In this document: positions 1,807 to 16,662 of the stretch, piece after piece
Numbering within the stretch: position 1 is the first letter of the stretch
Layout of the letters: each line of letters starts with the position of its first letter
Assembly (NCBI GenBank): GCA_001769215.1
Contig: MEOL01000009.1
Location: 62,001 to 126,000, forward strand
Direction of reading: 5' to 3'
Source: Bacteroidetes bacterium GWF2_41_31
Lineage (GTDB): Bacteria > Bacteroidota > Bacteroidia > Bacteroidales > F082
DNA: 64,000 bases
Notes under the pieces: generated by a model
The model's database searches: none
What the model was told of the DNA's origin: nothing
Seen by the model: only the letters and a program-made list of their open reading frames with translations
Program-made: the position numbers and the translations under genes

Positions 1807-1876
1807 GAATGTGTGAATCATGTAACTCTTAACCCAAATTATGTAATGTTTTTCGAATGGAATGATCAGATCTTTG
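1807..1876 (+). promoter_or_regulatory. Composite activator-type promoter (site A) for csbD
   Basis: TGTGAATCATGTAAC at 1812-1826 contains the first half-site ATGTAAC (1820-1826). A second, ATGTAAT, is at 1841-1847, exactly 21 bp later. The -7-like box GATCTTTG (1869-1876) ends 29 bp after the second half-site, giving a predicted start near 1880, about 36 bases before csbD. The bases 1807-1830 recur with one mismatch at site B. The region 1573-1915 holds no gene that I can see. Confidence 0.65.
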
Positions 1877-1915
1877 TGCAGTGAAAATATATTCACAAAT
1901 TAAATTATCAATACC

Positions 1916-2101
1916 ATGAATACAACAGTGATAAAGGGAAACTGGAAGGAGCAAAAAGGGCGGCTAAAGCAAAAATTCGCGATACTAACAGATGACGATT
2001 TGCTTTTGGGAAAGGGTAAAATGGATGAGATGATAGGAAGACTTCAAATAAAGCTCGGCAAAACCAAAGAGGAAATGCAAAAGATTATTGCAGCGCTTTA
2101 G
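1916..2101 (+). CDS. CsbD family stress-response protein
   Basis: This 61-residue protein matches the CsbD family: a short charged N-terminus, then KGNWKEQKGRLKQKF, an acidic turn and a Lys-rich helical tail. CsbD proteins are small cytoplasmic proteins induced by general or envelope stress in many bacteria; their molecular role is not known. The length is typical. It lies behind the composite promoter at 1807-1876, whose element recurs before tamBL, a small OMP and a cupin gene, so a stress- or signal-dependent regulator is inferred. A small two-helix membrane protein follows. Confidence 0.88.
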   Translation: MNTTVIKGNWKEQKGRLKQKFAILTDDDLLLGKGKMDEMIGRLQIKLGKTKEEMQKIIAAL

Positions 2102-2153
2102 AGTTCACTTTATTCCGGAATATCATTGTTAATATCTATTAATCGATGAGAAA

Positions 2154-2252
2154 ATGTTTGATCCATCGCGCATCTGGTTTATCTTCATTACCAACCTTGT
2201 TCATCATAAATTACGTGAATCGTTTAAAGTACTAAAACAATTATTAACATGA
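2154..2252 (+). CDS. Possible 32-aa leader or small protein overlapping the next gene
   Basis: A 32-codon frame (MFDPSRIWFIFITN at its start) fills most of the gap between csbD and the next gene. Its TGA overlaps that gene's ATG in an ATGA arrangement, the usual sign of translational coupling. The composition (aromatic/hydrophobic first half, basic second half) could be a membrane-associated peptide. No good ribosome-binding site is visible and I know no homologue, so this may be chance. Confidence 0.25.
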   Translation: MFDPSRIWFIFITNLVHHKLRESFKVLKQLLT

Positions 2253-2461
2253 AAAAAACCTCAGGAATTGCCCTTGTTATCATAGGTATTGTTATGATCG
2301 CATATACAGGTTTCAATTACGTAACTACTGAAAAAGTGGTCGATCTGGGCTCAATTGAAATCAACAAGGAAAAGAATCATTTTGTTCAATGGCCACCGAT
2401 ATTGGGCGTAGTACTAATTATTGGAGGCGTTGTAATGTTGGTCGTTGACAAAAAAAAATGA
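2249..2461 (+). CDS. Small membrane protein with two transmembrane helices
   Basis: The 70-residue protein has one hydrophobic helix at about residues 7-25 and a second at about 49-66, joined by a charged loop (VDLGSIEINKEKNH) and ended by DKKK. Proteins of this shape are common beside csbD, DUF5670 and ytxH genes in Bacteroidota stress loci, but I cannot assign a function. It probably sits in the inner membrane, and being downstream of csbD it may share its promoter. No catalytic residues are evident. Confidence 0.7.
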   Translation: MKKTSGIALVIIGIVMIAYTGFNYVTTEKVVDLGSIEINKEKNHFVQWPPILGVVLIIGGVVMLVVDKKK

Positions 2462-2492
2462 AATGAATCCATGAAATCAGTTGAAGCGCCCT

Positions 2493-2562
2493 GAATGTGT
2501 GAATCATGTAATTCTTTTCGTGAAATGTGTAATAATTTCCGGATGAATGCGAAATACTTTTG
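2493..2562 (+). promoter_or_regulatory. Composite activator-type promoter (site B) for the OMP at 2599
   Basis: The sequence 2493-2516 repeats 1807-1830 with one difference. Half-sites are ATGTAAT (2506-2512) and GTGTAAT (2527-2533), 21 bp apart. A canonical -7 box TACTTTTG (2555-2562) ends 29 bp after the second. The predicted start near 2566 excludes the upstream TTG at 2560 as start codon of the next gene. Confidence 0.7.
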
Positions 2563-2598
2563 TTTATGTTAAAATCATTAAAACTAAAATATGAACCT

Positions 2599-3150
2599 AT
2601 GAAAAAAATCACTTATACACTGCTCGCCTTACTCATCGTGGCAGGGCTTACTGCATCAGCTCAGGAGCGTGCCTACCCTGAAAAATTCGGCAAAACATTA
2701 AATCTCGGATTAGGATTGGGATATTACGGTTATGTTGGTCACCCCTTGCCTGTTTTTCACGCCGATTTTGAATTTGATGTGGTAAGGAATTTTACTTTGG
2801 CGCCATTTATCAATTTTTATTCTTATCGCAATCGATACAATCACCAGGACAATTACTATTATTATTATGAAACAGTGATCCCAATTGGGGTGAAGGCAAC
2901 TTATTACTTTGATGAATTACTCAATGCCAATAATAAGTGGGACTTCTATCTGGCAGGTTCGTTGGGATTTGCTATCAGAAATTCGCATTGGGATGATGGC
3001 TATGATGGTGATCCGGATAATTATCATGGTGCCAACCCTCTATACATAGACCTGCATATTGGGTCGGAATACCATTTTAACAATAAGCTGGGTGCATTTC
3101 TTGATTTATCCACCGGCGTATCTACGATAGGTTTAGCTGTTCACTTTTAA
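2599..3150 (+). CDS. Small outer-membrane beta-barrel protein with signal peptide
   Basis: From the ATG at 2599 the 183-residue product has a clear signal peptide (MKKITYTLLALLIVAGLTA, then SAQ cleavage site) followed by glycine- and tyrosine-rich amphipathic strands typical of an eight-stranded barrel. The C-terminus is VHF, ending in Phe as outer-membrane proteins do. The frame is open from a TTG at 2560, but that codon lies inside the -7 box of site B, so it cannot be on the transcript. The ligand is unknown. Genes for DUF5670 and YtxH-type proteins follow at 11 and 28 bp, suggesting one transcript. Confidence 0.8.
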   Translation: MKKITYTLLALLIVAGLTASAQERAYPEKFGKTLNLGLGLGYYGYVGHPLPVFHADFEFDVVRNFTLAPFINFYSYRNRYNHQDNYYYYYETVIPIGVKATYYFDELLNANNKWDFYLAGSLGFAIRNSHWDDGYDGDPDNYHGANPLYIDLHIGSEYHFNNKLGAFLDLSTGVSTIGLAVHF

Positions 3151-3161
3151 AATATTATATC

Positions 3162-3314
3162 ATGGGAAGTTTACTTTATATAATTGCCATCATCCTGATA
3201 ATAGGATGGGCCATCGGTTACTTTGCATACAGTGCAGGAGAAATGATTCACATTCTACTTGTGATTGCCGTTATTGCCATCTTGTTCAGGCTGATCAGTG
3301 GAAGAAGAGTGTAA
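3162..3314 (+). CDS. DUF5670 / lmo0937 family small membrane protein
   Basis: The 50-residue frame starts MGSLLYIIAIILIIGWAIGY and continues with FAYSAGEMIHILLVIAVIAI before the tail RLISGRRV. This is the recognisable pattern of the lmo0937/DUF5670 family: two hydrophobic helices around a YSAG turn and an Arg-rich end. Function is unknown; these genes often accompany csbD and ytxH stress genes, as here. The product should span the inner membrane twice. It starts 11 bp after the OMP stop. Confidence 0.85.
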   Translation: MGSLLYIIAIILIIGWAIGYFAYSAGEMIHILLVIAVIAILFRLISGRRV

Positions 3315-3342
3315 AACCAATTTTTAACACCTAAATATTATC

Positions 3343-3576
3343 ATGATGAATTCTGGAAAAGTTTTTTTAGGTATACTGGCCGGACTTGCTGCCGGTGCCA
3401 TGTTAGGATTGTTATTTGCACCCGAAAAAGGTGCTGATACCATTAAAAAAATAACGGATATGGGAGATGATTTTACAGATGATTTAGATCAGAAATTCGA
3501 TCATTTTCTGGATGTAATTGCAAAAAAAATAGATCATTTAAAGGAAGATGTTTCTACAATTGCTAAACGAGAGTAA
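3343..3576 (+). CDS. YtxH domain-containing protein
   Basis: The 77-residue product has the YtxH pattern: a single N-terminal glycine/alanine-rich membrane helix (VFLGILAGLAAGAMLGLLFA), the PEKG turn, then an acidic/basic amphipathic helix likely to form a coiled coil. YtxH proteins are membrane-anchored stress proteins of unclear mechanism. Two adjacent ATG codons (3343, 3346) could start it. It lies 28 bp after the DUF5670 gene and probably belongs to the same stress-induced transcript. Confidence 0.85.
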   Translation: MMNSGKVFLGILAGLAAGAMLGLLFAPEKGADTIKKITDMGDDFTDDLDQKFDHFLDVIAKKIDHLKEDVSTIAKRE

Positions 3577-3707
3577 GTAGCAGCCAATCAAACCTGGCAA
3601 GACGCAAGGGTACTCAAATTGAATGAGATGAAAGCTGAAATTTAGTTACTTTTTCTTTTAGCTGATGAAGTGGAGTGTATCCAAACAAAAATTGAATCGT
3701 TGACGCT

Positions 3708-4811
3708 ATGAAGGATCGTAATTTTACACTGCCTTTTTATGCCAGAGCATCGGTATTTTTCGTTGGACTCTATGTTGTTGTCTCTATTTTGTATATAACT
3801 CAAGGTATTGTTATTCCTCTTATTTTCGCCCTGGTTATTTCCATAGTGCTTCATCCGGTTGTCAATTTTTTTGTAAAAATAAAAGTAAACAGGATCGTAG
3901 CCATTGTTATAACCCTGATACTAACCTTAGCGGTGATTGGTAGTTTTGGTATGTTATTGGTTTCTCAGGCAAGCTTATTTAGTGAATCATGGCCAAAGTT
4001 TGTTGTCAAGTTTACCGAAATATTTAATGAGTCAGTTACCTGGGCTTCAGGTTATTTTGATATCAGCCCTCAAAAAATCGAGGCGTGGGTTTCAAAGACC
4101 AAAGGTGAAATGTTCAATACCAGCGGATCGTCAATTAAACAAACAATCACAAGTGTAGGTAGCGGGGTCGTGACATTGTTTATCATCCCGGTATACATCT
4201 TTATGTTTTTGTATTATAAACCGCTGCTGCTGGAATTTTTTCACAAACTATTTAGTGAAGAAAACCATAGTGCTGTTGGTGAGGTAATTAACCAGGTAAA
4301 AACGGTAATTCAACGCTATCTTATTGGATTGGTACTGGAAGTCATCATTATTGCCACACTTAATTCTGTTGGTTTGTTGATATTGGGAATTGATTATGCC
4401 ATATTACTGGGGATTATTGGTGCATTGCTCAACCTGATTCCGTATATCGGCGGAATTGTTGCTGTGGCATTGCCAATGATGATTGCCATCGTCACCACTT
4501 CTTCGCCAATAAATGCGTTGTACGTTCTGGCCATATATTATTTCATCCAACTCGTTGATAACAATTACATTGTTCCTAAAATTGTGGCATCAAAAGTTAA
4601 AATCAACGCGCTTGTCTCCATCATTGCTATATTTGCATTTGGTGTTTTGTGGGGCATCCCCGGCATGTTCCTGTCAATTCCGCTTGTCGCCATACTTAAA
4701 GTCATATTCGATCATTTTGAATCGTTAAAACCCTGGGGATTTTTGTTGGGAGATACCATGCCGGTAATAGATCTGTTTAAACTTAAACTTAAAACGAAAA
4801 GAAAAAGCTGA
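3708..4811 (+). CDS. AI-2E family transporter (UPF0118/PerM-like permease)
   Basis: The 367-residue integral membrane protein has paired hydrophobic helices at the N-terminus (about 14-55), another near 65-85, a large middle extramembrane region, then a C-terminal membrane block containing LLNLIPYIGGIVAVALP and IVPKIVASKVKINALVSIIA, which identify the AI-2E/PerM family. Members export small molecules or ions (autoinducer-2, Na+/H+); the substrate cannot be read from sequence. Length is normal. It lies in the envelope stress island, 131 bp after ytxH and 53 bp before mlaE, so co-expression with either is possible. Confidence 0.9.
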   Translation: MKDRNFTLPFYARASVFFVGLYVVVSILYITQGIVIPLIFALVISIVLHPVVNFFVKIKVNRIVAIVITLILTLAVIGSFGMLLVSQASLFSESWPKFVVKFTEIFNESVTWASGYFDISPQKIEAWVSKTKGEMFNTSGSSIKQTITSVGSGVVTLFIIPVYIFMFLYYKPLLLEFFHKLFSEENHSAVGEVINQVKTVIQRYLIGLVLEVIIIATLNSVGLLILGIDYAILLGIIGALLNLIPYIGGIVAVALPMMIAIVTTSSPINALYVLAIYYFIQLVDNNYIVPKIVASKVKINALVSIIAIFAFGVLWGIPGMFLSIPLVAILKVIFDHFESLKPWGFLLGDTMPVIDLFKLKLKTKRKS

Positions 4812-4864
4812 ATGAAAGCCCTTCGTCAGTAATTTAGCTTAGCAGATTAATTTAGACTTACGAT

Positions 4865-5704
4865 ATGAAAAATCTACATCCGGTTATAAAAATAAGAAGT
4901 TTTGCTACCGGGAAATCCGTTAAGATCAGCGAAAAAGCAATTGAGAAAACACAATTGGCTACTGAATTCTTTTCCGACATTGGAAATATGGCGATTTTTA
5001 TAAAGCAAATTGTAAAGGAAACGTTTTCACGGGATTTTGAATTCAAGGAATTTTTACGTCAGTGTTATGAAATAGGAAACAAATCGTTGCCATTGATTGC
5101 CATTACAGGAGCCATTATGGGTGTGGTACTCACGATTCAATCGCGTCCGGCGCTTGAAGATTTTGGAGCTGTTACCATGCTTCCAGGAATGGTAGCCATA
5201 TCCATTATCAGGGAAATAGGTCCGGTGATCACGGCATTAATACTTGCCGGAAAAATTGGTTCAGGAATGGGTGCTGAATTGGGATCGATGAAAGTTTCGG
5301 AGCAAATAGATGCTATGGAAGTTTCGGCAACCAATCCTATGCGTTACCTGGTCGTAACTCGTGTGCTTGCCGCCACATTCATGGTTCCTATTCTTGTATT
5401 ATTCGCTGACGCTTTAGGGCTGTTTGGAAGTTGGGTCGGCGTGAATATTAAAGGAGATGTAAGCCTTGTTTTGTTCTTGTCGCAGGCATTCAGTTCAGTT
5501 GAGTTCATCGATTTCTTTCCGGCGCTGGTCAAATCGTTTTTCTTTGGAAGTGTGATTGGCATTGTTGGATGCTACAAGGGGTATAATGCCGGACGAGGTA
5601 CCGAAAGCGTTGGCGTGGCAGCGAACTCGGCGGTTGTTTTATCGTCGCTGCTTGTTATTGTTGTTGATTTGATTGCAGTACAAATAACCGATATGATCTT
5701 ATGA
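4865..5704 (+). CDS. mlaE: MlaE family ABC transporter permease
   Basis: The 279-residue protein is the permease of the Mla-type phospholipid transporter in the inner membrane. It has a cytoplasmic N-terminal extension (about 1-75), then five or six hydrophobic segments. Family marks are IREIGPVITALILAG followed by GSGMGAELGSMKVSEQIDAM, where the SEQIDAM segment contacts the ATPase. Its TGA overlaps the ATG of mlaF in ATGA (5701-5704), so the two are translationally coupled. As usual in Bacteroidota, no mlaA, mlaC or mlaB is nearby. Direction of lipid transport cannot be deduced. Confidence 0.92.
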   Translation: MKNLHPVIKIRSFATGKSVKISEKAIEKTQLATEFFSDIGNMAIFIKQIVKETFSRDFEFKEFLRQCYEIGNKSLPLIAITGAIMGVVLTIQSRPALEDFGAVTMLPGMVAISIIREIGPVITALILAGKIGSGMGAELGSMKVSEQIDAMEVSATNPMRYLVVTRVLAATFMVPILVLFADALGLFGSWVGVNIKGDVSLVLFLSQAFSSVEFIDFFPALVKSFFFGSVIGIVGCYKGYNAGRGTESVGVAANSAVVLSSLLVIVVDLIAVQITDMIL

Positions 5705-6483
5705 AAAACCTGCAAAAAGAACCAATCCCTGCTATTTCTACGGAGGAAAAACCCGGTAGAAAGATGATAGAAATTATTGGCCTGAAAAAAGGTTTTAACA
5801 ACCAGGAGGTGTTAAAAGATATTTCGTTACAACTTTTTAGTGGCGAAAACCTGGTAGTTCTTGGAAAATCAGGATCAGGTAAGTCGGTACTGATTCAATG
5901 TATTATACGATTGTTGGTTCCTGATGCAGGATCGATTGAAGTGTTAGGCAGTGATGTCAATTCACTTAACAAGAATGAACTGGATGAGTTAAGAAGGAAA
6001 ATTGGTTTTCTTTTCCAGAGTGGTGCCTTGTATGATTCAATGACGGTGAAACAAAACCTGGAGTTTCCACTGCGGAGAATAAGAAAACACCTGACTGAAA
6101 AGGAGATTAAAGAGAAAGTGAATGAAGTACTCGAAAATGTGGGGCTGGCAGATGCTTTGAACAAGATGCCTTCGCAACTTTCTGGTGGGATGCGTAAACG
6201 GATCAGTTTGGCACGAACCATTGTGATCGACCCGTCGATCATGTTATATGACGAACCTACCACTGGTCTCGACCCGGTAACATCCGATGAAATAAGTGCG
6301 CTTATCAATGAGGTACAGAAAAAATATAAAACATCTTCCATCATCATCACACATGATATTGAATGTGCAAAAGCCACTGCTGACCGGATCATGATGCTGC
6401 AAGACGGAGAGGTGTATTTAGAAGGAAAAGTTAAAGACTTTGAAAATTCAACTGACCCCATCATAAAGTCATTCTTTAAGTAA
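5701..6483 (+). CDS. mlaF: MlaF-type ABC transporter ATP-binding protein
   Basis: This 260-residue ATPase powers the MlaE permease. Visible motifs are Walker A GKSGSGKS (residues 55-62), a Q-loop in FLFQSGALYDSMTV, the signature LSGGMRKR, Walker B with the catalytic Glu in IMLYDEPTTGLDP, and the switch His in IIITHD. The first 20 residues are an extra charged N-terminus; a second ATG at residue 22 could also start it, but the ATGA overlap with mlaE favours 5701. mlaD follows after 41 bp. All catalytic residues are intact. Confidence 0.93.
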   Translation: MKNLQKEPIPAISTEEKPGRKMIEIIGLKKGFNNQEVLKDISLQLFSGENLVVLGKSGSGKSVLIQCIIRLLVPDAGSIEVLGSDVNSLNKNELDELRRKIGFLFQSGALYDSMTVKQNLEFPLRRIRKHLTEKEIKEKVNEVLENVGLADALNKMPSQLSGGMRKRISLARTIVIDPSIMLYDEPTTGLDPVTSDEISALINEVQKKYKTSSIIITHDIECAKATADRIMMLQDGEVYLEGKVKDFENSTDPIIKSFFK

Positions 6484-6524
6484 CTAGAACATGATTATAA
6501 ATTTCATTTTAAAGATATATTGTT

Positions 6525-7238
6525 ATGAAATCAACACATTTTAAAGTCCGTTTGGGTCTGTTTGTAGCCGGTGGATTCTTACTGCTTGCTTTAGCCATAT
6601 TCATGATTGGAAAGCAGAAAAACCTGTTTAATCCTGTTTTTACCATCTATGCCAATTTCTATAATGTAAGCGGACTTCAGGTTGGCAATACCATCCGGTT
6701 CTCCGGGATCAATGTAGGAACAGTCGACAATATAAAAATAGTGAATGATTCTACCGTCAAGGTGGACATGATTATTGAAAGAAAGGTCCAGCCCTTTATT
6801 AAGACCGATAGTGAGGTTACCATTGGTTCGGAAGGAATTATCGGCGACCGTGTTTTAATTATTACTCAAGGCACCACCGATGCTCCGTCGATCAAGGAAA
6901 AACAATTCCTCGATTCTGTGGAACCAGTTGAATTGGATGCCATCATGGCAAGTCTCGAGGTTACAGCTTTAAATGCTGAGGTCATTTCCCAACAATTGGT
7001 AGAGATTATGATCAATATTAACGAGGGAAAAGGATTAATTGGAATGCTTATCAAAGATACAACCATAGCCGGGAATATCGATCAGACGATCGTCAACCTT
7101 AAGGAGAGCAGCAAAGGGTTGGATGAAAATATGGATGCCGTAAAAGGCAGTTGGCTGTTAAGAGGCTATTATAAACGTAAAGCCAGAAAAGCCGAGAAAG
7201 CGCTTGAGGATAAATTGGATGAAAATAAAGCGGACTAA
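6525..7238 (+). CDS. mlaD: MlaD/MCE family lipid-binding protein
   Basis: The 237-residue protein has one N-terminal membrane helix (about 9-27) and an MCE domain at about residues 38-115, recognisable by NVSGLQVGNTIRFSGINVGT and GSEGIIGDRVLII. A helical periplasmic tail follows, ending in a very basic/acidic stretch (KRKARKAEKALEDKLDENK). MCE proteins form hexamers on the periplasmic side of MlaE and channel lipids. It is the third gene of the MlaEFD set. The tail lacks the long hydrophobic needle seen in PqiB-type proteins. Confidence 0.92.
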   Translation: MKSTHFKVRLGLFVAGGFLLLALAIFMIGKQKNLFNPVFTIYANFYNVSGLQVGNTIRFSGINVGTVDNIKIVNDSTVKVDMIIERKVQPFIKTDSEVTIGSEGIIGDRVLIITQGTTDAPSIKEKQFLDSVEPVELDAIMASLEVTALNAEVISQQLVEIMININEGKGLIGMLIKDTTIAGNIDQTIVNLKESSKGLDENMDAVKGSWLLRGYYKRKARKAEKALEDKLDENKAD

Positions 7239-7254
7239 AATATAACTTAAAAAA

Positions 7255-7443
7255 ATGAAAGTATTTAAATTAGTAATCGCTGTTATATTTTCCATTGGGC
7301 TTGTGTTTGGAACAAGCTCATGTGCCACATTTACCCATCACGACAGTGGACAGCATAGAGGATGGAACAAAAATTCAAATAACCCGCATCACTACAACTC
7401 TACCAACCCTGGAAACGCCAAAGGGAAGCATAAGAATAAATAG
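7255..7443 (+). CDS. Small putative lipoprotein, Asn/His/Gly-rich
   Basis: The 62-residue product begins with a hydrophobic signal segment ending in GTSSC, a plausible lipobox with Cys23 as the lipidated residue. The mature part is about 40 residues, rich in His, Asn, Gly and Lys (RGWNKNSNNPHHYNS, then a basic tail). Such composition suggests a flexible exported peptide, perhaps metal- or polymer-binding; this is inference only. It lies 16 bp after mlaD and probably ends that operon. The 227 bp after it hold no gene. Confidence 0.7.
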   Translation: MKVFKLVIAVIFSIGLVFGTSSCATFTHHDSGQHRGWNKNSNNPHHYNSTNPGNAKGKHKNK

Positions 7444-7670
7444 GGCTAAAGTATTATTGGTAATACCTGGGTAAATACCTCGTGTCTCCGATGTGTAACA
7501 CTCTTCCTGAAGGAAGGTGATTTTGTATTGATATTCAATTAAATAGCAATTTAAGTAATTCATATTTTTTCTTTCCGGTTTGGATTGAAACAACCAGATT
7601 AAAAAAAAAAAGACGATTTTTCAAAATCTTATTTTTTCTATTATCTTTATCTTTTCAAAAAAGTAAGAAT

Positions 7671-8231
7671 TTGAAACTCTATATTCGGTATATGGTTAGC
7701 CTTCGTTGTAAAATGAAGGTAAAAGAGGAGTTGAGTAAATTGGGTTTGCATTATATCCTTGTGAATCTGGGTACGGTTGAAATTCTTGAAAACATTACAG
7801 ATTTACAACACCAACAACTAAAAGAAAACCTATTCAACTCCGGGCTGGAATTATTGGACGATAAAAGAAGTATACTGATTGAAAAAATAAAGGCAGTCAT
7901 CGTTGAAATGATTCACTATGCGGAGGAATTACCTAAGGTTAATTATTCTGACCATATCAGTGAAAAACTGAATCTCGATTATACCTATCTTTCCAATGTA
8001 TTTTCTGAGGTCACAGGCATTACCATCAGGCAATATATCATCGTCCATAAAATTGAAAAGGTTAAGGAGTTGCTTTTATATGACGAGCTTAACCTGACAG
8101 AGATTTCGTATAGGATGCAATACAGCAGTGTAGCTCATCTATCCAACCAGTTTAAGAAAATTACCGGGCTCACACCCACTTTTTACAGGCAATTGAAGAA
8201 AAGACGAGAATCCAACCTCGAAAACCTCTAA
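7671..8231 (+). CDS. AraC family helix-turn-helix transcriptional regulator
   Basis: The 186-residue protein has a short N-terminal sensor-like domain and a C-terminal AraC DNA-binding domain at about 90-180. The second helix-turn-helix is seen in LTEISYRMQYSSVAHLSNQF followed by KKITGLTPTFYR, a standard AraC signature. The start is TTG at 7671: the product then begins MKLYIRYMVSLRCKM, which I recall as the usual start of this Bacteroidota subfamily; an ATG at 7692 would remove it. No ligand is known. It is transcribed alone, between the mla operon and convergent tamL, and its targets cannot be inferred. Confidence 0.85.
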   Translation: MKLYIRYMVSLRCKMKVKEELSKLGLHYILVNLGTVEILENITDLQHQQLKENLFNSGLELLDDKRSILIEKIKAVIVEMIHYAEELPKVNYSDHISEKLNLDYTYLSNVFSEVTGITIRQYIIVHKIEKVKELLLYDELNLTEISYRMQYSSVAHLSNQFKKITGLTPTFYRQLKKRRESNLENL

Positions 8232-8303
8232 AAGGTTGACCTTCAATGTTTGTCTATTCCATTTATAATGACTTAACAAAACTTATTGTTCTCATCCGGG
8301 TAT

Positions 8304-8324
8304 ACCGTGGTTTTCACCCACGGT
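8304..8324. terminator. Weak hairpin between convergent genes
   Basis: ACCGTGG (8304-8310) and CCACGGT (8318-8324) form a 7-bp stem with a 7-nt loop in the gap between the AraC gene and tamL. There is no long T-run on either side, so terminator function is only suggested by position. Confidence 0.35.
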
Positions 8325-8494
8325 TATTGAGATTTATTCCCGTCAGGGATTTGAATGAGTAAAAAACATGACCACTAACCATAACTTATTTGATATACCA
8401 ACGGTTTTAATCAACAGAATAAAACATTGTTGGCCAGTATGCTGACATGCAGTCTGATACAATAGGTTTTCTGAGGCAAAGAATTTTGTTTTGC

Positions 8495-10804
8495 TTAGAA
8501 TGGATACCCAATGGCAATATTTAATACGAGGTTTTCTCTTCGCCATGTAGAACTACCCGGGCTAATCTCATTGATGACCCACCTTCTGTTTTCTTCAAGC
8601 CAAGGTTTTCGTAATGGGATGGCCAAATCAAATCGCAAAACAAAGAACGAAACATCTATTCGTAATCCTACGCCTGCCCCAACAGCTACTTCGTTAATAA
8701 AATTGGAAAACGAAAATGGATTTCCTGTGTTCGCGGGATTTGATTTTAATTCCCAGACATTTCCTGCATCAACAAATAATGCCCCTTTAAAAAAGCTGAT
8801 AATGTTAAAGCGGTATTCGCCGTTCAATTCCAATTTTACATCGCCACCCAATTGCAGGAATATACCGCTATCGGTACTCTGATTGTAGTTTCCGGGACCC
8901 ACGGAGTTGATATGAAACGCGCGAATGCTATTGGGCCCGCCACTAAAAAATTGCTTGCTATAGGGGAGGGTTTGACTGTTGCCATAAGGTACGGCCAATC
9001 CCATGAAAATTCTCGACACCAATTTATTCTGATCATGTAAGTTGTAGTAACCACGCCCATCGACACTGATCCTTGCAAACTGCGAAAAGACTGATCCGAC
9101 CACTTTTAAGGGCTCATCAGAGGATATTTTTTTCCCACCTATTATTTTTACCAATGACAAGGAGTTTCCCGCGAATTCTGTTGCTAAATGGAAATAGTAT
9201 TGCATCTTTTTGCCCAGCAAAACTTGTTCATTATACGTGAAGGAATAACTCCCTCCGGCGATAAATTGCTCTTCATAGCTTTTTTTAAGAAAAGGGTTGG
9301 ATGCCAGTAAGGCCAGGAATTCAGCTGATTGGTTGCCAAATGAAGAATAACTAATACTGATGGGGTTTAATTCATGTTCTTTTCTGATTTCTTCTTTCCA
9401 TTTAAACCCGTAAATGATTTCGAAGGTGCGCATATCGTAATAGTTTACCATTTTTAAAAAAGTAAACGAAAGTGAAAGACGGGTTTTTGGAGTATACATG
9501 CTACTTTCTCGTATCTTAAAAGGCAACAGAAAACGCGGAAAATACATCTCCACTTTGGGACTTATGGAATAAGAAAACAAATTTTTATTTTTCCCACTTA
9601 GCTGGGCCTCAAATCTTCCATCGATTTTTAAATTAAGCAATTCAGCTCCTTTAAAAGTATTTCTATTCAGAAAACTCAAATTCAATTTTGGGCCTGTATA
9701 GTTATTTGATTTTGAAATGATGTCCACTTCTGCCTTGAAAGTGTGTTTTGACATGGGTGTCATGAATATGAGCACATCTAAAAATCTGTTGAGTACGGTA
9801 TCACTTTCAGAAAATTTCACCCGTACAAATTTGAAATTGCCCATCGACATCAACCGGTTAAGTGTCATGCTGTGGTTCTTTCGTGAATAGAGTTCCTGTT
9901 TTTTTAAAAAAACCGATCGCAATATAACCCTTGGCCTGATTTCCATTTCCGCTTCCTTCCCCAGAAAAATAGTACCTTGATAATGGATCGTGTCTTTGGT
10001 TTGTACACTATCAGAAGCAGCTAAAGAATAGTCTTGATCGATAATCACCTGGTTTATGCGATAGGCTATCGTTGCATTTTGTGGAATGCTGTCTTTTAAT
10101 TCGAGATTGAATGATACCGTTCGGTTTATTTCAGAAGTGTCGGCCTTAAAGATCAAATAGTCGGGATTAAAGTAGAAGTAACCGTGGTTTTTCAACAAGG
10201 CATCCATCCTGTTTCTTTCGGTTTTTAATTTTTCAAGGTTATAATCTTCACCTGGTTTAATCAACGTTTCATCATTTCTATTCAGAATCAATTGACGCAC
10301 ACTATCATTCGAAATGCTGTTAATAAGCTCCTTTGTCGTATAGGGTTTATGGATACTACTGGTGTAAATCACTTTCGCCGTACGTTTTTTTTCGATGATG
10401 TTAAATCGGGTAATGCCCTTGAATATCCCAATGTTATAAAGTTTGGCATTGATGATGTCGGATGTCATCGAAGGGTTCACCTGGCTCATCAAAACAGGTG
10501 CTTCCCCTGTTTTCTTAAGCCACTTCTTAAATTTACTTTTTGGATGATCTCCGGCTAACAAGTATATCCATAATTTAGGTCGCATGCCTAAATAACTTTT
10601 GTTGGGTTTTGGCAATAGTCCATTTTCTGCCGTCTTTTTAATAAATCGGATTTTTGATTTTTTGATGTTGTCTTTTGATTCCAGTTTTATCACCCCGCCC
10701 GCATATAGTTTTTCTCCTTCCGGTAAATGCCGTGTTCCGATACATGCTGTAATAAGCAGCAACATAATCATCAGTATGCTTTTATTTAGGATTGATCCCT
10801 TCAT
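8495..10804 (-). CDS. tamL: TamL, BamA-family (Omp85) outer-membrane lipoprotein
   Basis: The 769-residue protein begins with a lipoprotein signal (MLLLITAC, Cys21), continues with POTRA-like periplasmic repeats (to about 330), and ends in an Omp85 barrel; QFFSGGPNSIRAFHINSVGP is the conserved barrel motif and the protein ends NIAIGYPF. A lipidated Omp85 protein beside tamB is the TamL arrangement of Bacteroidota, which takes the place of TamA in assembling outer-membrane or surface proteins. The frame also opens at a GTG (10828) overlapping the tamB stop as GTGA, so coupling from there is possible; I prefer the ATG at 10804 because it gives a normal signal-peptide N-terminus. Transcribed with tamB. 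Confidence 0.9.
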   Translation of the reverse strand: MKGSILNKSILMIMLLLITACIGTRHLPEGEKLYAGGVIKLESKDNIKKSKIRFIKKTAENGLLPKPNKSYLGMRPKLWIYLLAGDHPKSKFKKWLKKTGEAPVLMSQVNPSMTSDIINAKLYNIGIFKGITRFNIIEKKRTAKVIYTSSIHKPYTTKELINSISNDSVRQLILNRNDETLIKPGEDYNLEKLKTERNRMDALLKNHGYFYFNPDYLIFKADTSEINRTVSFNLELKDSIPQNATIAYRINQVIIDQDYSLAASDSVQTKDTIHYQGTIFLGKEAEMEIRPRVILRSVFLKKQELYSRKNHSMTLNRLMSMGNFKFVRVKFSESDTVLNRFLDVLIFMTPMSKHTFKAEVDIISKSNNYTGPKLNLSFLNRNTFKGAELLNLKIDGRFEAQLSGKNKNLFSYSISPKVEMYFPRFLLPFKIRESSMYTPKTRLSLSFTFLKMVNYYDMRTFEIIYGFKWKEEIRKEHELNPISISYSSFGNQSAEFLALLASNPFLKKSYEEQFIAGGSYSFTYNEQVLLGKKMQYYFHLATEFAGNSLSLVKIIGGKKISSDEPLKVVGSVFSQFARISVDGRGYYNLHDQNKLVSRIFMGLAVPYGNSQTLPYSKQFFSGGPNSIRAFHINSVGPGNYNQSTDSGIFLQLGGDVKLELNGEYRFNIISFFKGALFVDAGNVWELKSNPANTGNPFSFSNFINEVAVGAGVGLRIDVSFFVLRFDLAIPLRKPWLEENRRWVINEISPGSSTWRRENLVLNIAIGYPF

Positions 10805-10824
10805 GTCTATTGGTTTTCGATGAA

Positions 10825-13800
10825 TCACTTTTGTTGTTTTAGTTTCTTAAAGAATTCTTTCCATTGATCGAAATCGCGCACGTATATAATACCTACACCG
10901 GTTTCAACCAGCTGACCTTCGATGGCACCTGCGTATCGATTGTGACTAAAACCAACCAGCCGATACCTGCCATCCCTGGTCAATTTATATTCTACTGTCA
11001 CGTCACTTGTTACATCGCTTAACGAATTTTGTTTGGCCCTGGCTCCTTCAACATCTACAACACCTCCAATCTGAACAGATAACCGTTCGTTAAAAAGCTG
11101 TTTTTTTAATCCGATGTCCACTTGAGTTCTTCCAATAGCCTGGCTCGATTCATAATCATCATACGAACGTACATCAAAATTCAATTCCACTCCGGGAACC
11201 ACCTTTGAACTTAACTTATTAAGTTCAGCCGATAAAAATTTGCCAACTGTGGCACGCACCAGGGCTGATGTTCCATCACTGGTACCGGTTTGTAACGGGT
11301 TTTCCTGGACAAACCTGCCCAATACTAATAGAGCAAATACCTGTTTGTTTAAGGCTGATGGATCTTCATTTAATAGGTTCAATTTTGCATTTACTGCACC
11401 ACCTAAAATTCCCTTGTCTTCAGGGGGCAATTGTATTTCGAAACTGATTTCGGGATGTAAAATATCTCCGCGGAGTTTTAGCAACACCAGGAACAGATAG
11501 CGTTGTTTATAGGTGTTCTTTTCGCTTTCGCTTAATCCGGTTATCTGATCAGCTACCAGGTTGATTGGCGAAGTACGAACCGAATAAACTGCATTAATCG
11601 AAATTTCGGCATCGAGAGGGTCACCATTCCAAATAATGGTACTTCCACCCTCAATGGCAAATTTCCTTTTTACAATAGATTCCAGCGAAACAATGTAGCT
11701 GCCTTCGTTTAGATGATAGGCTCCGGTGAGGCTTATTTTCCCGCTTCTGTCCATCGTAAAGTTTAAGGCAGCTTCACCTCTGACTACCAGAGAATCGGTG
11801 GACGTTGGATCCATTAACAACCGGAGTGTTGCTTGTTTATCGATTTCAATGGTGGAAGAAAGGTCGAATCCTTTAAAATTGGATTTTTGTATTTGTTTTT
11901 GCTCATCCCTGTATAATATTTCATTATGGTCTGAAGGATCATTAAATGATACAACACCTTCGCCTTTGTTGGTGGAGAGTTTGTTTTGGGGAACGGCAAA
12001 GGTAAAGTTTGAACCTTTTTTCATCTTTAAATCTGCATTAACAACAGGAAGCGACATGGGACCGGTTATATCAATCTTGCTGTCGATGATCATTTTTCCA
12101 AAGAATACTTTGTTGTCTTTTACGGTAGTGTTGAACAATAAAAAGTCCTTCGTTTTGACGTGCAAATCAAAAACGAAATTTCCGAATTGTTTCATTTTAA
12201 CCGAACCATTAATGGTGGCTGTATGCTGATTGGTGTCTGCCATAGTAAAAGAGTTAAAGTAGACTCCGTCATTTTTCAATTGCACGGTTTCGTGTTTTAA
12301 CTCCAGGCGGTTGTTTAATACAGCGGGTTTGATAAACGCATTGTTAAACACCAGTTCACCAGTGATCTCGGGAGAATTGGTTGCTCCCTTGATTAAAAAG
12401 TTTCCCGAAACAGTCCCGGAGGCTTCTTTAATTTGCCCCATCGAAAATGCTTCAATGGTTTTCATCGAGAGCGATTTGAACTCCCCGTTTATATGGATTG
12501 AATTGTCACCTCCGCCCGGAATAATATAGCCATTGGCTCTCAAGTCGTTGTCCATGCCCGATAACCTGACATCCAATTCGAATCTCTCGGTGGTTGGGTT
12601 CTCGGCTTTCAGCGATAAATTACCGACAGAAACATTTTGTACGACCAGATCGGTTATTTGGGCATCGGCCACTATTCCATACGAGTTGTTAGCCTTTTTT
12701 AATAAGATGTTCCCATCCACGACTCCATTAACCAGGTTGCTGTCTTTTTCGATAATCCCGAAGAGGTCGTTTAGTTTGAAATGCTGAATGGAAATATTCA
12801 GGTCATCATTGAATTTTTCGTGTACGGAAGAAAGGCTGACCTCACTTGTTGCTTTGTTAAAAGTCAGGTTGTGGATTAAAATTCCCTGTGATCCGAATTT
12901 GATGTAATGATCCGATGCAATATCCCAGCGGTCGTTCATCAGATAAAAGTCAGAGGGGTTGAGGGTGAGTTTGTAATGAGTGGCTTCTCTGTTGAGTTGA
13001 GACCGAATCAACAACTTTTTGTGCTGCTGGTCATCTGTAGACGAAACGTTTGCCCACATTGTATTCTCCGATAGTTTTCCATCAAACAAAAAATGATCCA
13101 CCTTGATTTGTGGGTTTGAAATGTTGCTGCTCGAAATTTTATAATTCAAGGCATTCGAATCCGAATTCACATCCAAAACAAGGTCATTAACTTCGATATT
13201 TCCATACATCAGGTGGTTCATGGTGGCGTTCAGTTTCAACTCCTTTTTAGGGTTATTAAAACCTCCACGAATGAAAACGGGATCGAAATCTGCTGGCAGA
13301 GGAAGTAAAATTTTTGAAAGAATGGGATGGTTACGAATCTGGATTTCAAAATTAAATTGTGAGAGTACGCTGTCGCTGAGTTGAGGGATAGAATCTGAAA
13401 ATTGAAAATATTGATTTATAAACCGGTTAAGTTCCGAGGGAAGCCCGGACGGAGAAACCGTTCCTGCAAATTGTAAGCCAATGACTGCACTGCTGGAAGT
13501 TAACTTGCTGTCATTGGTTTTATTTATCGAAGCAGCAAATACGGAATCAACACCATATCTTTCACCTTCATACATAAGGATGAGGTTGTTAACTGCTGCT
13601 TTTCCAACCATTTTATTGGCTGAATCCTTTTTTAAATTGGCTGACGCGACCAATCCTATTTGCAGGTCATCTGTTGTGAGTTGAAGTTTTTGAAGGTCGG
13701 CTCCCTGCACGTTTAACAAAAATTTAACCTCTTCCTCTTTTGGCTTTAGGTTCACTAATCCATCCAAATCAAATACAGCGTTTTCGTCGTTCAGGTTTAT

Positions 13801-15783
13801 TTTTCCGCCAAATTGCCGCCCGTTTATATTGCCGTTTATTTTAAGATGTTGGTAGTTGTAACCATTTAGAACCATCTGAGATACCTCACCTACTATTATT
13901 GCCTGAATGCTATCCGGGTTTAGGCCCTGGCCGGTAGTTTCAAGATTCAATGAAACCGGTCCAAACAGAGCGGTATCGTTGAGCAGGCGGCCAAGATTGA
14001 AATCCAGGATGTTCACTCTTCCCTTGAAATTCTCATTTGGGTCGATTGTGGCGAAAATGGTGGCTGCCCCAAAACTACTGCCCATGCTTATCGTTGATTC
14101 AAATTCCTTCAGCCGCCCGTTAAAATCGATTTGCAACTCAATGTTTTCGGGAAGTTCCATGTTGTTTGGAATCGATGAAGCGGCTATCATTTCAATGTCC
14201 TTTCTGCCCGAAATAATATTCAGATTGGGAAAATCATAATGAGCAGTTTGTAGGTCAGGCAAGCCTGTAATACTGAAATCGGTTTGTAACAGGGTACGGC
14301 TTCCGGTGCTTATTGCCAGATTTTTCCCGCTAAGATCATTCACAGCCCCAGTAACAATTCCTGATATGGTGGTGGTGATTGCAGGGTCGTTAAAAAAAGG
14401 AAGCTCAATAAGTTGAGGGCTAAAATAGAGGATATCCGAATTTTTAAAACGGACATTTTTCAGGTTTACATTCAGTACCATGAAAGGAAATGAATCTTTC
14501 AATGAATTTAAAGAAGGAAATTGAATGGCCAGGTCCGCATCAATCGAGGTATTGGCGGTTTTAAGTTTCAATTTATCTGCCGTGATTGAATGTTGGTCCA
14601 TACTGAAATCCGTTTCAAATTGGACAATTGAGATGTGATCTTCATCCACGGCGCTGAATTTTTTAATTGAAGCCAGGATGGTATCCGATGAATAGGCAAC
14701 ATCTGTTGCAACAAGGGTTATGTGCTGATAATCCAGGTGATCTTCATCAAATGTGTTTGTTGTGTCCGTTTTATCTCCTTTATGGTATGCCAGTGAATTG
14801 TTATCCAGGTCGATGCTGTTGGTGGTAATTTTCCAATCACCTTTTTCAGAAGCACCAGGAAGCGGAGCAAGGGTGTCATGAGATGATTTTTGGTCACTTG
14901 TGTTAAATTGCAATTCGCTTTTTAACAAGGAGAGCTGATCCAGCGAAACCAACTGCTTTTGCAAATCGACCACTCCCTTTTTGAGTTCAAACTGGTTGAT
15001 GTCGGCCTTAATCGTTTGATTGTTTGTCGAGTGCCCATAATGAACAGTCGAGTTTACGATCTGAACGTAATTGGCTGATATTAATGGTAATATTCCAGTT
15101 GAACTGCTCCTTGAAGATTGGGTGGATTCCGTGATTTGGACATGAGCATCCAGACTCTCAACCAGCAATTCGTTGACAAGAAAAACAGATTTTTCGAGAT
15201 CAATCCCGTCTACATGCAATTTCAAATTTTTAAGCGTGGTCGATAAATTCATTCCGCCGTATGCATCATCATAGTGAAAGCGGATATCGTTCATGTTCAC
15301 CTGACCAACACTGAAAGTCCAGGCCGATTTTGTTTTATTGTCTGCCTTTTGTTGTTTGGTAGTATCGCTAAAGGCTTTAATTAGGAAATTGTAATTGAAC
15401 AATGAATCGGATGCGGGCCTGTTAAGGTTGAGATTCACATTCTCAAGAGCAAAAGAGAGGATATTTATCTTATTTGACAGCAAGTCGAACAGTGCGATGT
15501 TAATTTTTAGCTCCCCGGCGTACAACAGCGTATCCTTTTTCAAATCTTCCAAAAATAGGCCCTCAATAACAACTGATTTTGGAAATGAAATCCGGATCTT
15601 TCTGATATCAACTTTGGTATGCGTTTTATTGCTGACAAATGATGCGCCTGAATGGACTATTTTTGTTTGAATGGCAGGAACTTGAATCAGCACTGCGATA
15701 CTGATCAAAAAAATTAATAGGGCAAAGATCATCCACAGGATGACATGAAGTGATTTCTTTATAAATAAATGTCTTTTACTCAT
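10825..15783 (-). CDS. tamB: TamB, inner-membrane-anchored translocation/assembly protein
   Basis: The 1652-residue protein has one N-terminal membrane helix (about residues 13-32) followed by a very long periplasmic stretch of repeated short beta-strands, the AsmA/TamB taco fold. The last 400 residues carry the conserved DUF490 domain (KISLTGAYHLNEGSYIVSLE, later ALLVLGRF). TamB bridges the inner membrane and the Omp85 partner and is implicated in protein assembly and phospholipid movement to the outer membrane. The length is normal for the phylum. It is followed directly by tamL and preceded by the composite promoter site C, with a leader of about 125 bases. Confidence 0.92.
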   Translation of the reverse strand: MSKRHLFIKKSLHVILWMIFALLIFLISIAVLIQVPAIQTKIVHSGASFVSNKTHTKVDIRKIRISFPKSVVIEGLFLEDLKKDTLLYAGELKINIALFDLLSNKINILSFALENVNLNLNRPASDSLFNYNFLIKAFSDTTKQQKADNKTKSAWTFSVGQVNMNDIRFHYDDAYGGMNLSTTLKNLKLHVDGIDLEKSVFLVNELLVESLDAHVQITESTQSSRSSSTGILPLISANYVQIVNSTVHYGHSTNNQTIKADINQFELKKGVVDLQKQLVSLDQLSLLKSELQFNTSDQKSSHDTLAPLPGASEKGDWKITTNSIDLDNNSLAYHKGDKTDTTNTFDEDHLDYQHITLVATDVAYSSDTILASIKKFSAVDEDHISIVQFETDFSMDQHSITADKLKLKTANTSIDADLAIQFPSLNSLKDSFPFMVLNVNLKNVRFKNSDILYFSPQLIELPFFNDPAITTTISGIVTGAVNDLSGKNLAISTGSRTLLQTDFSITGLPDLQTAHYDFPNLNIISGRKDIEMIAASSIPNNMELPENIELQIDFNGRLKEFESTISMGSSFGAATIFATIDPNENFKGRVNILDFNLGRLLNDTALFGPVSLNLETTGQGLNPDSIQAIIVGEVSQMVLNGYNYQHLKINGNINGRQFGGKINLNDENAVFDLDGLVNLKPKEEEVKFLLNVQGADLQKLQLTTDDLQIGLVASANLKKDSANKMVGKAAVNNLILMYEGERYGVDSVFAASINKTNDSKLTSSSAVIGLQFAGTVSPSGLPSELNRFINQYFQFSDSIPQLSDSVLSQFNFEIQIRNHPILSKILLPLPADFDPVFIRGGFNNPKKELKLNATMNHLMYGNIEVNDLVLDVNSDSNALNYKISSSNISNPQIKVDHFLFDGKLSENTMWANVSSTDDQQHKKLLIRSQLNREATHYKLTLNPSDFYLMNDRWDIASDHYIKFGSQGILIHNLTFNKATSEVSLSSVHEKFNDDLNISIQHFKLNDLFGIIEKDSNLVNGVVDGNILLKKANNSYGIVADAQITDLVVQNVSVGNLSLKAENPTTERFELDVRLSGMDNDLRANGYIIPGGGDNSIHINGEFKSLSMKTIEAFSMGQIKEASGTVSGNFLIKGATNSPEITGELVFNNAFIKPAVLNNRLELKHETVQLKNDGVYFNSFTMADTNQHTATINGSVKMKQFGNFVFDLHVKTKDFLLFNTTVKDNKVFFGKMIIDSKIDITGPMSLPVVNADLKMKKGSNFTFAVPQNKLSTNKGEGVVSFNDPSDHNEILYRDEQKQIQKSNFKGFDLSSTIEIDKQATLRLLMDPTSTDSLVVRGEAALNFTMDRSGKISLTGAYHLNEGSYIVSLESIVKRKFAIEGGSTIIWNGDPLDAEISINAVYSVRTSPINLVADQITGLSESEKNTYKQRYLFLVLLKLRGDILHPEISFEIQLPPEDKGILGGAVNAKLNLLNEDPSALNKQVFALLVLGRFVQENPLQTGTSDGTSALVRATVGKFLSAELNKLSSKVVPGVELNFDVRSYDDYESSQAIGRTQVDIGLKKQLFNERLSVQIGGVVDVEGARAKQNSLSDVTSDVTVEYKLTRDGRYRLVGFSHNRYAGAIEGQLVETGVGIIYVRDFDQWKEFFKKLKQQK

Positions 15784-15911
15784 TACCAGGTTTATTCAAA
15801 ATAGCAATACAGGCTGTCAAAGGTCGAAGATTCATCATGTATTTTCAGCCAGGGTGAATATGTTTCATCAAACATAAGATATTCTTAAAATCATCTGTCA
15901 TTAGCAGCTAT

Positions 15912-15975
15912 CAAAGATAGCTTGATTTAGTTCTGTTTTATTACATTACTTTGGCTAAGAGTTACATCATTCACA
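15912..15975 (-). promoter_or_regulatory. Composite activator-type promoter (site C) for tamB-tamL
   Basis: Read on the minus strand: TGTGAATGATGTAAC (15975-15961) holds half-site ATGTAAC; the second, ATGTAAT, is at 15946-15940, 21 bp on. The canonical -7 box TATCTTTG (15919-15912) ends 28 bp after it. The box is at the centre of an inverted repeat, AGCTATC-AAA-GATAGCT (15906-15922 as written on +). Bases around the two half-sites closely match site A, including CTCTTA and CCAAA. Confidence 0.7.
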
Positions 15976-16115
15976 TATTATCAATGGTGATGAGTGCCTG
16001 ATAAAAATTGAGAATACAATTTCCTTCTTGTTAAAATCAAATTAATGGTGATAAAGGGATTCTCATTCTTTGTGGTGGTAATTGTAAAAATGGAGGGAAA
16101 AGCTTCCCAAAAACG

Positions 16116-16180
16116 TGTGAAATGTGTAAAGATTTTCAGAACCGATGTAACACATTTTTGACCATAATGAATCAAATTTG
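16116..16180 (+). promoter_or_regulatory. Composite activator-type promoter (site D) for the cupin gene
   Basis: TGTGAAATGTGTAAA (16116-16130) holds half-site GTGTAAA; ATGTAAC follows at 16145-16151, again 21 bp later. A -7-like box CAAATTTG (16173-16180) ends 29 bp after it. Sites C and D are divergent within the same 522-bp gap (15784-16305), which otherwise shows no gene. Confidence 0.6.
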
Positions 16181-16305
16181 CATTCAGATTATAAGTAACA
16201 CACTTTATGCTTAAAATACATTAACTAAGCTGTCACCCAAGTCCCCTCATTTCATAAATGTGGGTCAACTTCGAACGAATATTAAAAAATAAAACACGGT
16301 TTCCG

Positions 16306-16662
16306 ATGAAATATAGTGAAGACAGTGTGGAATTAAAAAAAACAATGGTGCATGTGGTGGTCGAAATTATTACATATAAGCCCAATGCAGTGGTAAGAAA
16401 GACGATCATCAAAAGACCCACGGGTCACATCATGGTATCTTCTTTTGACTTGGGGGAAGAGCTTGTTGAAAAAATTGAACCATTCGATAACTACATTCAA
16501 ATTATTGAAGGGAAGGCCAACATGATGATTGATGACAAAGAATTTGTCCTTTGCCTTGGTGAAGGAATTATCATTCCTGCCCACGCGAAACTGAAATTTC
16601 ATGCCAACGAACAATTCAAGATGGTTTCCACGATGATTAAAAGTGGGTACGAAGGTTTTTAA
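16306..16662 (+). CDS. Cupin domain protein
   Basis: The product (118 residues from ATG 16306; 134 from ATG 16258) is a single-domain cupin. Visible are ITYKPNAVVRKTI, SSFDLGEELVEK, YIQIIEGKANMMIDDKEFVL and GEGIIIPAHAKLKFHANEQF, the paired motifs of the small RmlC-like barrel. The first motif lacks the usual metal-binding histidines, so it may bind ligand without a metal or act as a sensor. The later start is preferred because related small cupins begin 15-20 residues before this strand. It is monocistronic, divergent from tamB, behind site D. Confidence 0.75.
   Translation: MKYSEDSVELKKTMVHVVVEIITYKPNAVVRKTIIKRPTGHIMVSSFDLGEELVEKIEPFDNYIQIIEGKANMMIDDKEFVLCLGEGIIIPAHAKLKFHANEQFKMVSTMIKSGYEGF

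Follow-up and report, generated by a model that had tools for sequence, protein, structure and literature searches.

Four promoter regions in a 64,000-nucleotide stretch of the genome of Bacteroidetes bacterium GWF2_41_31 (contig MEOL01000009.1, positions 62,001 to 126,000; the window in what follows) carry the same spaced repeat element, and the question raised by this locus is which protein reads the element and which genes it thereby controls. An earlier note on this DNA had described the sites, suggested a LytTR-type response regulator as their reader, and proposed that they could define an undescribed envelope-homeostasis regulon. The analysis reported here points to a different protein. 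The element is real and very likely the operator of a regulon, and its four copies in the window are most probably bound by small AraC-family activators of one clade (clade A), represented in this genome by the genes at window 7671-8231 and C3:33589-34140 (G, C and L numbers are our handles for genomes, contigs and loci). This reading draws on computed features of the sequences: the element and its fixed geometry, its position in front of genes, its distribution across the phylum, and its link to the AraC clade, seen as co-occurrence and, in many genomes, as physical linkage to the gene itself.

The element and its specificity

The general form of the element is TGTGAAtnATGTAAC-N15-TGTAAC, that is, direct repeats at a 21-bp step, followed by A-N2-TTTG; the TGTGAA box is a conserved part of it. 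The geometry given in the earlier note was confirmed, with TGTGAA starting at 1812 (+), 2498 (+), 15975 (-), and 16116 (+), a 21-bp step between the starts of the TGTAA half-sites at four of four window sites, TTTG boxes ending 29, 29, 28, and 29 bp past the second half-site, and, on reading the sequence, the long repeat common to sites 1 and 2 with one mismatch. The first TGTAA begins 9 bases on from TGTGAA at all four. The sites are listed below with their scores (bits, from a weight matrix built on foreign sites) and expectation values (E, from the sequence-only model R1).

Site 1, 1812-1876, plus strand, upstream of csbD: TGTGAA at 1812-1817, TGTAAC at 1821-1826, TGTAAT at 1842-1847, TTTG box ending at 1876; 45.3 bits, E 3.8e-10
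Site 2, 2498-2562, plus strand, upstream of a small outer-membrane protein gene and the genes after it; 41.9 bits, E 2.6e-8
Site 3, 15912-15975, minus strand, upstream of tamB-tamL, with a gap to TTTG one base shorter than at the other three sites; 41.5 bits, E 1.4e-7
Site 4, 16116-16180, plus strand, upstream of a cupin gene; 36.3 bits, E 4.1e-7

Within the window, TGTAA pairs at the 21-bp step number four, every one at these sites, and each other step from 10 to 39 bp gives zero to two pairs; all matches to TGTAA-N16-TGTAA are likewise the four sites. The stricter RTGTAAY-N14-RTGTAAY of the earlier note fits three of them but not the site at 16116, where the first half reads GTGTAAA. Across the whole genome, TGTAA-N16-TGTAA alone is not specific, giving 35 matches against 19 for the reversed pattern. 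With the TGTGAA box added and one mismatch allowed, a pattern derived from this genome alone gives 18 matches here and none when reversed. The same pattern was then applied to 80 named loci (1.35 Mb) gathered around relatives of the candidate regulator, 80 of at least 566 relatives being kept, where up to two mismatches yield 146 matches and the reversed pattern none.

The weight matrix was built from the 88 foreign sites that depart from the pattern at one position at most, the window's genome contributing none, and R1 from the same 88 sites; the training loci of both were selected by AraC relatedness. Applied to the window, the foreign matrix finds exactly the four sites, at 36.3-45.3 bits, and no further window position above 8 bits, while 30 Markov-shuffled windows contain one match above 8 bits in total (0.03 per 64 kb) and none above 10 bits. 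A structure alignment covering 45 of the 80 named loci and the window was also made. In the 80 loci, 64 cases have 16 bases between the two TGTAA boxes, three have 15, and one has 11; no other length from 10 to 23 occurs.

The downstream box, which is absent from the search pattern, emerges at offset 58-64 of the 146 aligned sites as A-N2-TTTG (A 86%, T 95%, T 97%, T 77%, G 60%), and A-N2-TTT stands at offset 57 or 58 in 128 of the 146, compared with zero to five sites at each of 23 other shifts. The TAnnTTTG box of the earlier note is thus present in its TTTG part but is better written A-N2-TTTG, as the -12 T of the housekeeping box is mostly missing (kept in 17 of 128 foreign sites). An occurrence as frequent inside genes as before them, which the earlier note had named as refuting its proposal, is not observed: 131 of the 146 foreign sites overlap predicted coding sequence by no more than 5 of their 65 bp, 10 overlap it by more than 32 bp, and for 133 a gene on the same strand is predicted to begin 45-400 bp from where the site starts, as judged with a simple gene caller of our own.

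Co-occurrence with the AraC clade

The number of sites in a genome follows the presence of clade A. Among 100 family genomes, with clade A defined by E <= 1e-60 (a threshold set after the data were seen), pattern matches average 10.9 in the 17 genomes with the clade, 0.40 in the 43 with weaker relatives only (E <= 1e-25), and 0.15 in the 40 without a relative at E <= 1e-25. At least three matches occur in 14 of 17 genomes with the clade and in 2 of 83 without (Fisher 1.7e-12; this and the other co-occurrence tests carry no correction for kinship). The association is also seen inside six genera, for example as 14 matches versus 0 and 0, or 13 and 10 versus 1 and 0.

In a set of 395 phylum genomes, where the clade was counted down to 1.1e-59, any pattern match is found in 28 of 37 genomes with the clade versus 49 of 358 without, and at least three matches in 13 of 37 versus 6 of 358. 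R1, at E <= 1e-4, finds a match in at least 28 of 37 versus at least 18 of 358; at least 17 genomes have three or more such matches, and 15 of these have the clade, the exceptions being G110 and G115. The R1 counts are lower bounds, 13 candidates having been scored per genome. One genome of the set, G325, contains a microsatellite of TGTAATG units whose sequence mimics the motif (C1:2736204-2736287); its seven pattern matches (six in the microsatellite) and eight reversed-pattern matches were retained in the phylum counts.

Physical joining of the site to the AraC gene

Sites also lie directly beside the clade-A genes. A site of at least 14 bits is present at the 3' end of 71, upstream of 18, and at either end of 89 of 125 clade-A genes, compared with 55 of 3000 random single 200-bp windows from the same loci, a comparison in which the test covers two 200-bp stretches per gene and the control one, and in which one site may count for two tandem AraC genes in six loci. 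Outside the matrix training loci, 27 of 47 clade-A genes are so linked. Many 3'-end sites run into the gene itself: among the 76 counted over all relatives, 46 contain the stop codon (37 TGA, 9 TAA), in a register where the first five bases of the site comprise two bases from the end of the last sense codon and the three of the stop codon, and TGA is the stop in 14 of 74 relatives without a 3'-end site.

Several observations weigh against assigning the sites to clade A. Neither end bears a 14-bit site in 36 of the 125 clade-A genes, including both of this genome; the within-genus contrast is weak in g3 and part of g9; no pattern match is found in 9 of the 37 clade genomes of the phylum set; and some clade genomes of the family set have few (G008 one, G046 two, G054 two). 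Conversely, G291 has two R1 matches but lacks any relative at E <= 1e-8, and G083 and G074 have three and five pattern matches, neither with a full clade-A gene; G074 (genus g14), counted as without the clade, has a 76% identical fragment. G110 and G115 (L310-L315) carry six R1 sites each with only distant CxxC-type AraC relatives, and no clade-A gene was found inside their fetched site clusters.

The candidate regulator

The clade-A gene of the window is as follows.

7671-8231, plus strand: candidate regulator of 186 amino acids, with an HMA-like N-terminal domain and an AraC DNA-binding domain (HTH_18 4.1e-18)

Its AraC-type C-terminal domain, with two helix-turn-helix motifs, is confirmed by HTH_18 (4.1e-18) and HTH_AraC (5.6e-13), both above cut-off, and by 31 Foldseek matches at E <= 0.001, mostly to AraC-type domains; NCBIfam has no model above cut-off for this protein or for the four relatives scanned. 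This genome holds four relatives of the type, and a small AraC-family gene stands at each of its two main site clusters, the products of window 7671-8231 and C3:33589-34140 being 59% identical.

In the AlphaFold2 model (pLDDT 89.1), the N-terminal ~60 residues form a ferredoxin-like beta-alpha-beta-beta-alpha-beta fold (strand 2-6, helix 11-23, strands 28-32 and 35-38, helix 44-56, short strand 60-61). Foldseek aligns this domain to the Atx1 entries 2xmv and 4a47 with probability 1.00 and target-normalized TM scores of 0.72 and 0.69, at weak E values of 0.18 and 0.14. The window protein has no HMA profile match at E <= 0.01, and among eight relatives scanned the profile is above cut-off in one (L126) and weak in two more. 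The domain is thus like HMA/Atx1 in fold and differs from it in the metal site, S-x-x-C replacing C-x-x-C in 123 of 125 clade-A rows, with the second cysteine kept in all 125; the two-cysteine site of clade A is therefore broken. Cysteine occupies the first position in 19 of 21 other relatives (90-200 bits), and the change between CxxC and SxxC needs two steps on a tree of 91 of the 146 proteins. The stress clade may accordingly have derived from metal-sensing regulators.

A CxxC-type HMA-AraC paralogue is found among metal-efflux-looking genes at C28:79840-86436 (L308), where a weaker, 20-bit site lies just past the paralogue's stop codon and before a heavy-metal-binding-domain gene. The second clade-A gene of this genome adjoins genes for a 1018-residue PAS histidine kinase with a receiver domain and for a receiver-only protein (C3:30059-34140; L062), so that a phosphorelay input to the clade-A regulator is possible; in L222, an AraC gene is likewise followed by a gene for a similar-looking PAS protein.

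Alternative regulators

The reader of the element could be of AraC type and yet be another AraC-family protein, or CxxC-type relatives in general, rather than clade A alone. Such an assignment would accommodate G110 and G115, as well as the 3'-end sites found at some CxxC-type genes (L129 39 bits, L316 30, L074 20, and L317 19), but these are few, at 4 of 19 CxxC-type genes outside the training loci, and the 43 family genomes with weaker relatives only have the low mean of 0.40 matches given above; we consider it improbable.

A LytTR response regulator, as put forward in the earlier note, would also bind direct repeats, as AgrA does (PMC4227749). LytTR genes are present in 99 of the 100 family genomes, with 15 in this genome, and their count correlates with that of the sites (Spearman 0.50). 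The proposal nevertheless fails on distribution: after genome size is accounted for, LytTR count keeps a partial correlation of 0.25 and clade presence one of 0.71, and the 16 genomes with at least eight LytTR genes and no clade-A AraC have only zero to five sites. Although the test treated the LytTR family as a whole, with subfamilies pooled, a reader of this type now appears very unlikely.

An alternative extracytoplasmic function (ECF) sigma factor reading the element as -35 and -10 boxes, to which the conserved TGTAAC box at a nearly fixed distance from a conserved downstream box lends some appeal, is scarcely credible, as the gap of 21-22 bases from TGTAAC to A-N2-TTTG exceeds the ECF spacing of 15-18 and the full upstream repeat is conserved too. 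The downstream box is, moreover, near-identical to the housekeeping TAnnTTTG (-12 to -5; PMC9723704). The TGTGA half is suggestive of a CRP/FNR operator, yet the 146-site consensus consists of direct repeats and has no TCACA arm, and this candidate was rejected.

Promoter geometry and proposed mechanism

An AraC-type reader from clade A remains the preferred assignment, and the position of the element relative to the promoter suggests how it might act. In Flavobacterium psychrophilum, the housekeeping box TAnnTTTG lies at -12 to -5 (PMC9723704). With the box end of the present element set at -5, the second TGTAAC occupies roughly -39 to -34, and the start of the first box falls near -69. The arrangement agrees with that of AraC/XylS-type sites in its 21-bp step and in a second repeat that ends 21-22 bases before A-N2-TTT at 128 of 146 sites, relative to a predicted transcription start.

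Two known systems offer parallels. The XylS site is made up of two direct repeats, each 15 bp long, and the second of them overlaps the -35 box (PMC5481539, PMC4225500); the present element resembles the XylS/Pm arrangement in having two 15-bp direct repeats, each of a box A and a box B, and an AraC-type DNA-binding domain as putative reader (PMC5481539, PMC4225500). It differs in its boxes (TGTGAA/TGTAAC here, TGCA/GGTA for XylS), in the N-terminal domain of the protein (an inducer-binding beta-barrel in XylS, an HMA-like domain of ~60 residues in the 186-residue protein), and in having at least 20 sites in this one genome. The AraC-type hybrid two-component systems (HTCS) of Bacteroides have predicted motifs made up of direct repeats at an average distance of 21 bp (PMC3878776), and thus share with the present system both the step and an AraC-type DNA-binding domain in Bacteroidota. 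They are single long chains (periplasmic sensor, kinase, receiver) that control glycan use (PMC3878776), whereas the present protein has 186 residues and likely stress and envelope targets; HTCS membership was rejected, as only AraC-type domains exceed the Pfam cut-offs in it.

By analogy with the XylS repeats and the 21-bp HTCS step, and from the position of the sites, the regulator would bind as a dimer to one face of the DNA, on two 15-bp direct repeats of which the first comprises box A (TGTGAA) and box B (TGTAAC) and the second, a weaker version, ends in TGTAAC. Of the two, the repeat nearer the promoter would lie at the position of the -33 element, from which the protein could contact RNA polymerase and recruit it to a weak promoter. 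The polymerase would then read the degenerate -7 box, A-N2-TTTG, and stress and envelope genes would be switched on in response to an inducing signal. Activation rather than repression is suggested by the position of the site relative to the promoter.

A proposed stress and envelope regulon

In our reading, these elements mark a widespread and previously undescribed regulon of stress and envelope genes under an activator of AraC type. A broader proposal, to which we give slightly less than even weight, is that it constitutes the general stress regulon of Bacteroidota, phylum-wide and run by an AraC-type activator instead of an alternative sigma factor, that the activator arose from metal-sensing HMA-AraC proteins by loss of the metal site, and that its gene often carries the operator of the next promoter across its stop codon. 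To judge from gene content alone, a general stress function is plausible, CsbD and YtxH-like small stress proteins among the likely targets recalling the SigB and RpoS regulons; the present system would differ from these in using an AraC-type activator at near-housekeeping promoters and no alternative sigma factor.

We know of no RpoS, SigB, or EcfG in Bacteroidota, and no paper on a regulon of the present kind was found in the open-licence PMC literature, as judged by titles and the beginnings of abstracts. The coordination of stress and envelope genes in this phylum can now be approached through a single clade of regulators, an exact model of their likely site, and the targets predicted for the 80 named loci, and several little-studied families (CsbD, DUF5670, YtxH, ice-binding-like proteins, and cupins) are tied to one likely switch.

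Genes behind the sites

Target genes were assigned by position, with Pfam where run, and their grouping into operons is suggested by gene order and strand. In the window, the genes concerned are the following.

1916-2101, plus strand: csbD-like gene, first after site 1 (Pfam CsbD 1.9e-12)
2249-2461, plus strand: small membrane protein of 70 amino acids, between csbD and site 2 (Pfam matches sub-threshold only)
2599-3150, plus strand: small outer-membrane-type protein, first after site 2 (no Pfam family above cut-off); the ATG at 2599 was chosen in view of a predicted transcript start near 2567, the open reading frame list giving 2560
3162-3314, plus strand: DUF5670 (lmo0937-type) small membrane protein (Pfam 2.6e-15)
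3343-3576, plus strand: YtxH-like protein (Pfam 1e-15)
3708-4811, plus strand: AI-2E family transporter (Pfam 1.8e-56)
4865-7238, plus strand: mlaE, ABC ATPase, and mlaD genes (Pfam MlaE, ABC_tran, MlaD)
8495-10828, minus strand: tamL-type Omp85 gene (Pfam Omp85 2.4e-28)
10825-15783, minus strand: tamB, first after site 3 (Pfam TamB 1.2e-63)
16258-16662, plus strand: cupin-type gene, first after site 4 (start approximate; cupin matches sub-threshold only)

Over the 4.5-Mb genome, R1 finds at least 20 sites at E <= 0.0012, the next standing at 0.0145; with 150 of 2668 candidates scored, this is a lower bound. Behind them lie two csbD genes; the small outer-membrane protein gene followed by DUF5670, YtxH, AI-2E, and mla genes; tamB-tamL; the cupin gene; genes for ice-binding-like proteins (by Pfam for two, by look for the rest); two OmpA genes; a DUF5670 gene; a rubrerythrin-like gene followed by an oxidoreductase gene; kaiC with kaiB; genes for a CHASE3-PAS kinase and a GH130 protein; a small membrane gene before that of a PAS-type protein (by eye); a DUF4348-like gene; a heavy-metal-binding-domain gene; and, on C48, a short gene without assigned function. 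Envelope genes are thus among the likely targets, as the earlier note proposed, but a restriction to envelope homeostasis is too narrow for a set that includes kaiC/kaiB, rubrerythrin, a sensor kinase, and GH130.

Comparable genes recur elsewhere. Pfam was tallied for 124 first genes after sites (120 foreign and four from the window), the best 25 of 68 families being considered; 12 of 132 first-downstream genes had been excluded as looking short, cut, or doubtful, one of which, L261:1376-1936, is the AraC gene. The tally gives Ice_binding 12, two cupin profiles 11 and 10, AraC 9, OmpA 8, CsbD 6, two outer-membrane barrel profiles 6 and 5, DUF748 (a profile that also matches the window TamB) 5, YtxH 4, and GH130 3, and on this basis the csbD, outer-membrane protein, and cupin targets recur in other genomes. 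Look-alikes of the 70-residue membrane protein at 2249-2461 adjoin sites in L203, L222, L248, and L262, as judged by eye, and at C14:116573-119201 (L065) a site is followed by kaiC and then two short kaiB-like genes, Pfam having been run on the first of these.

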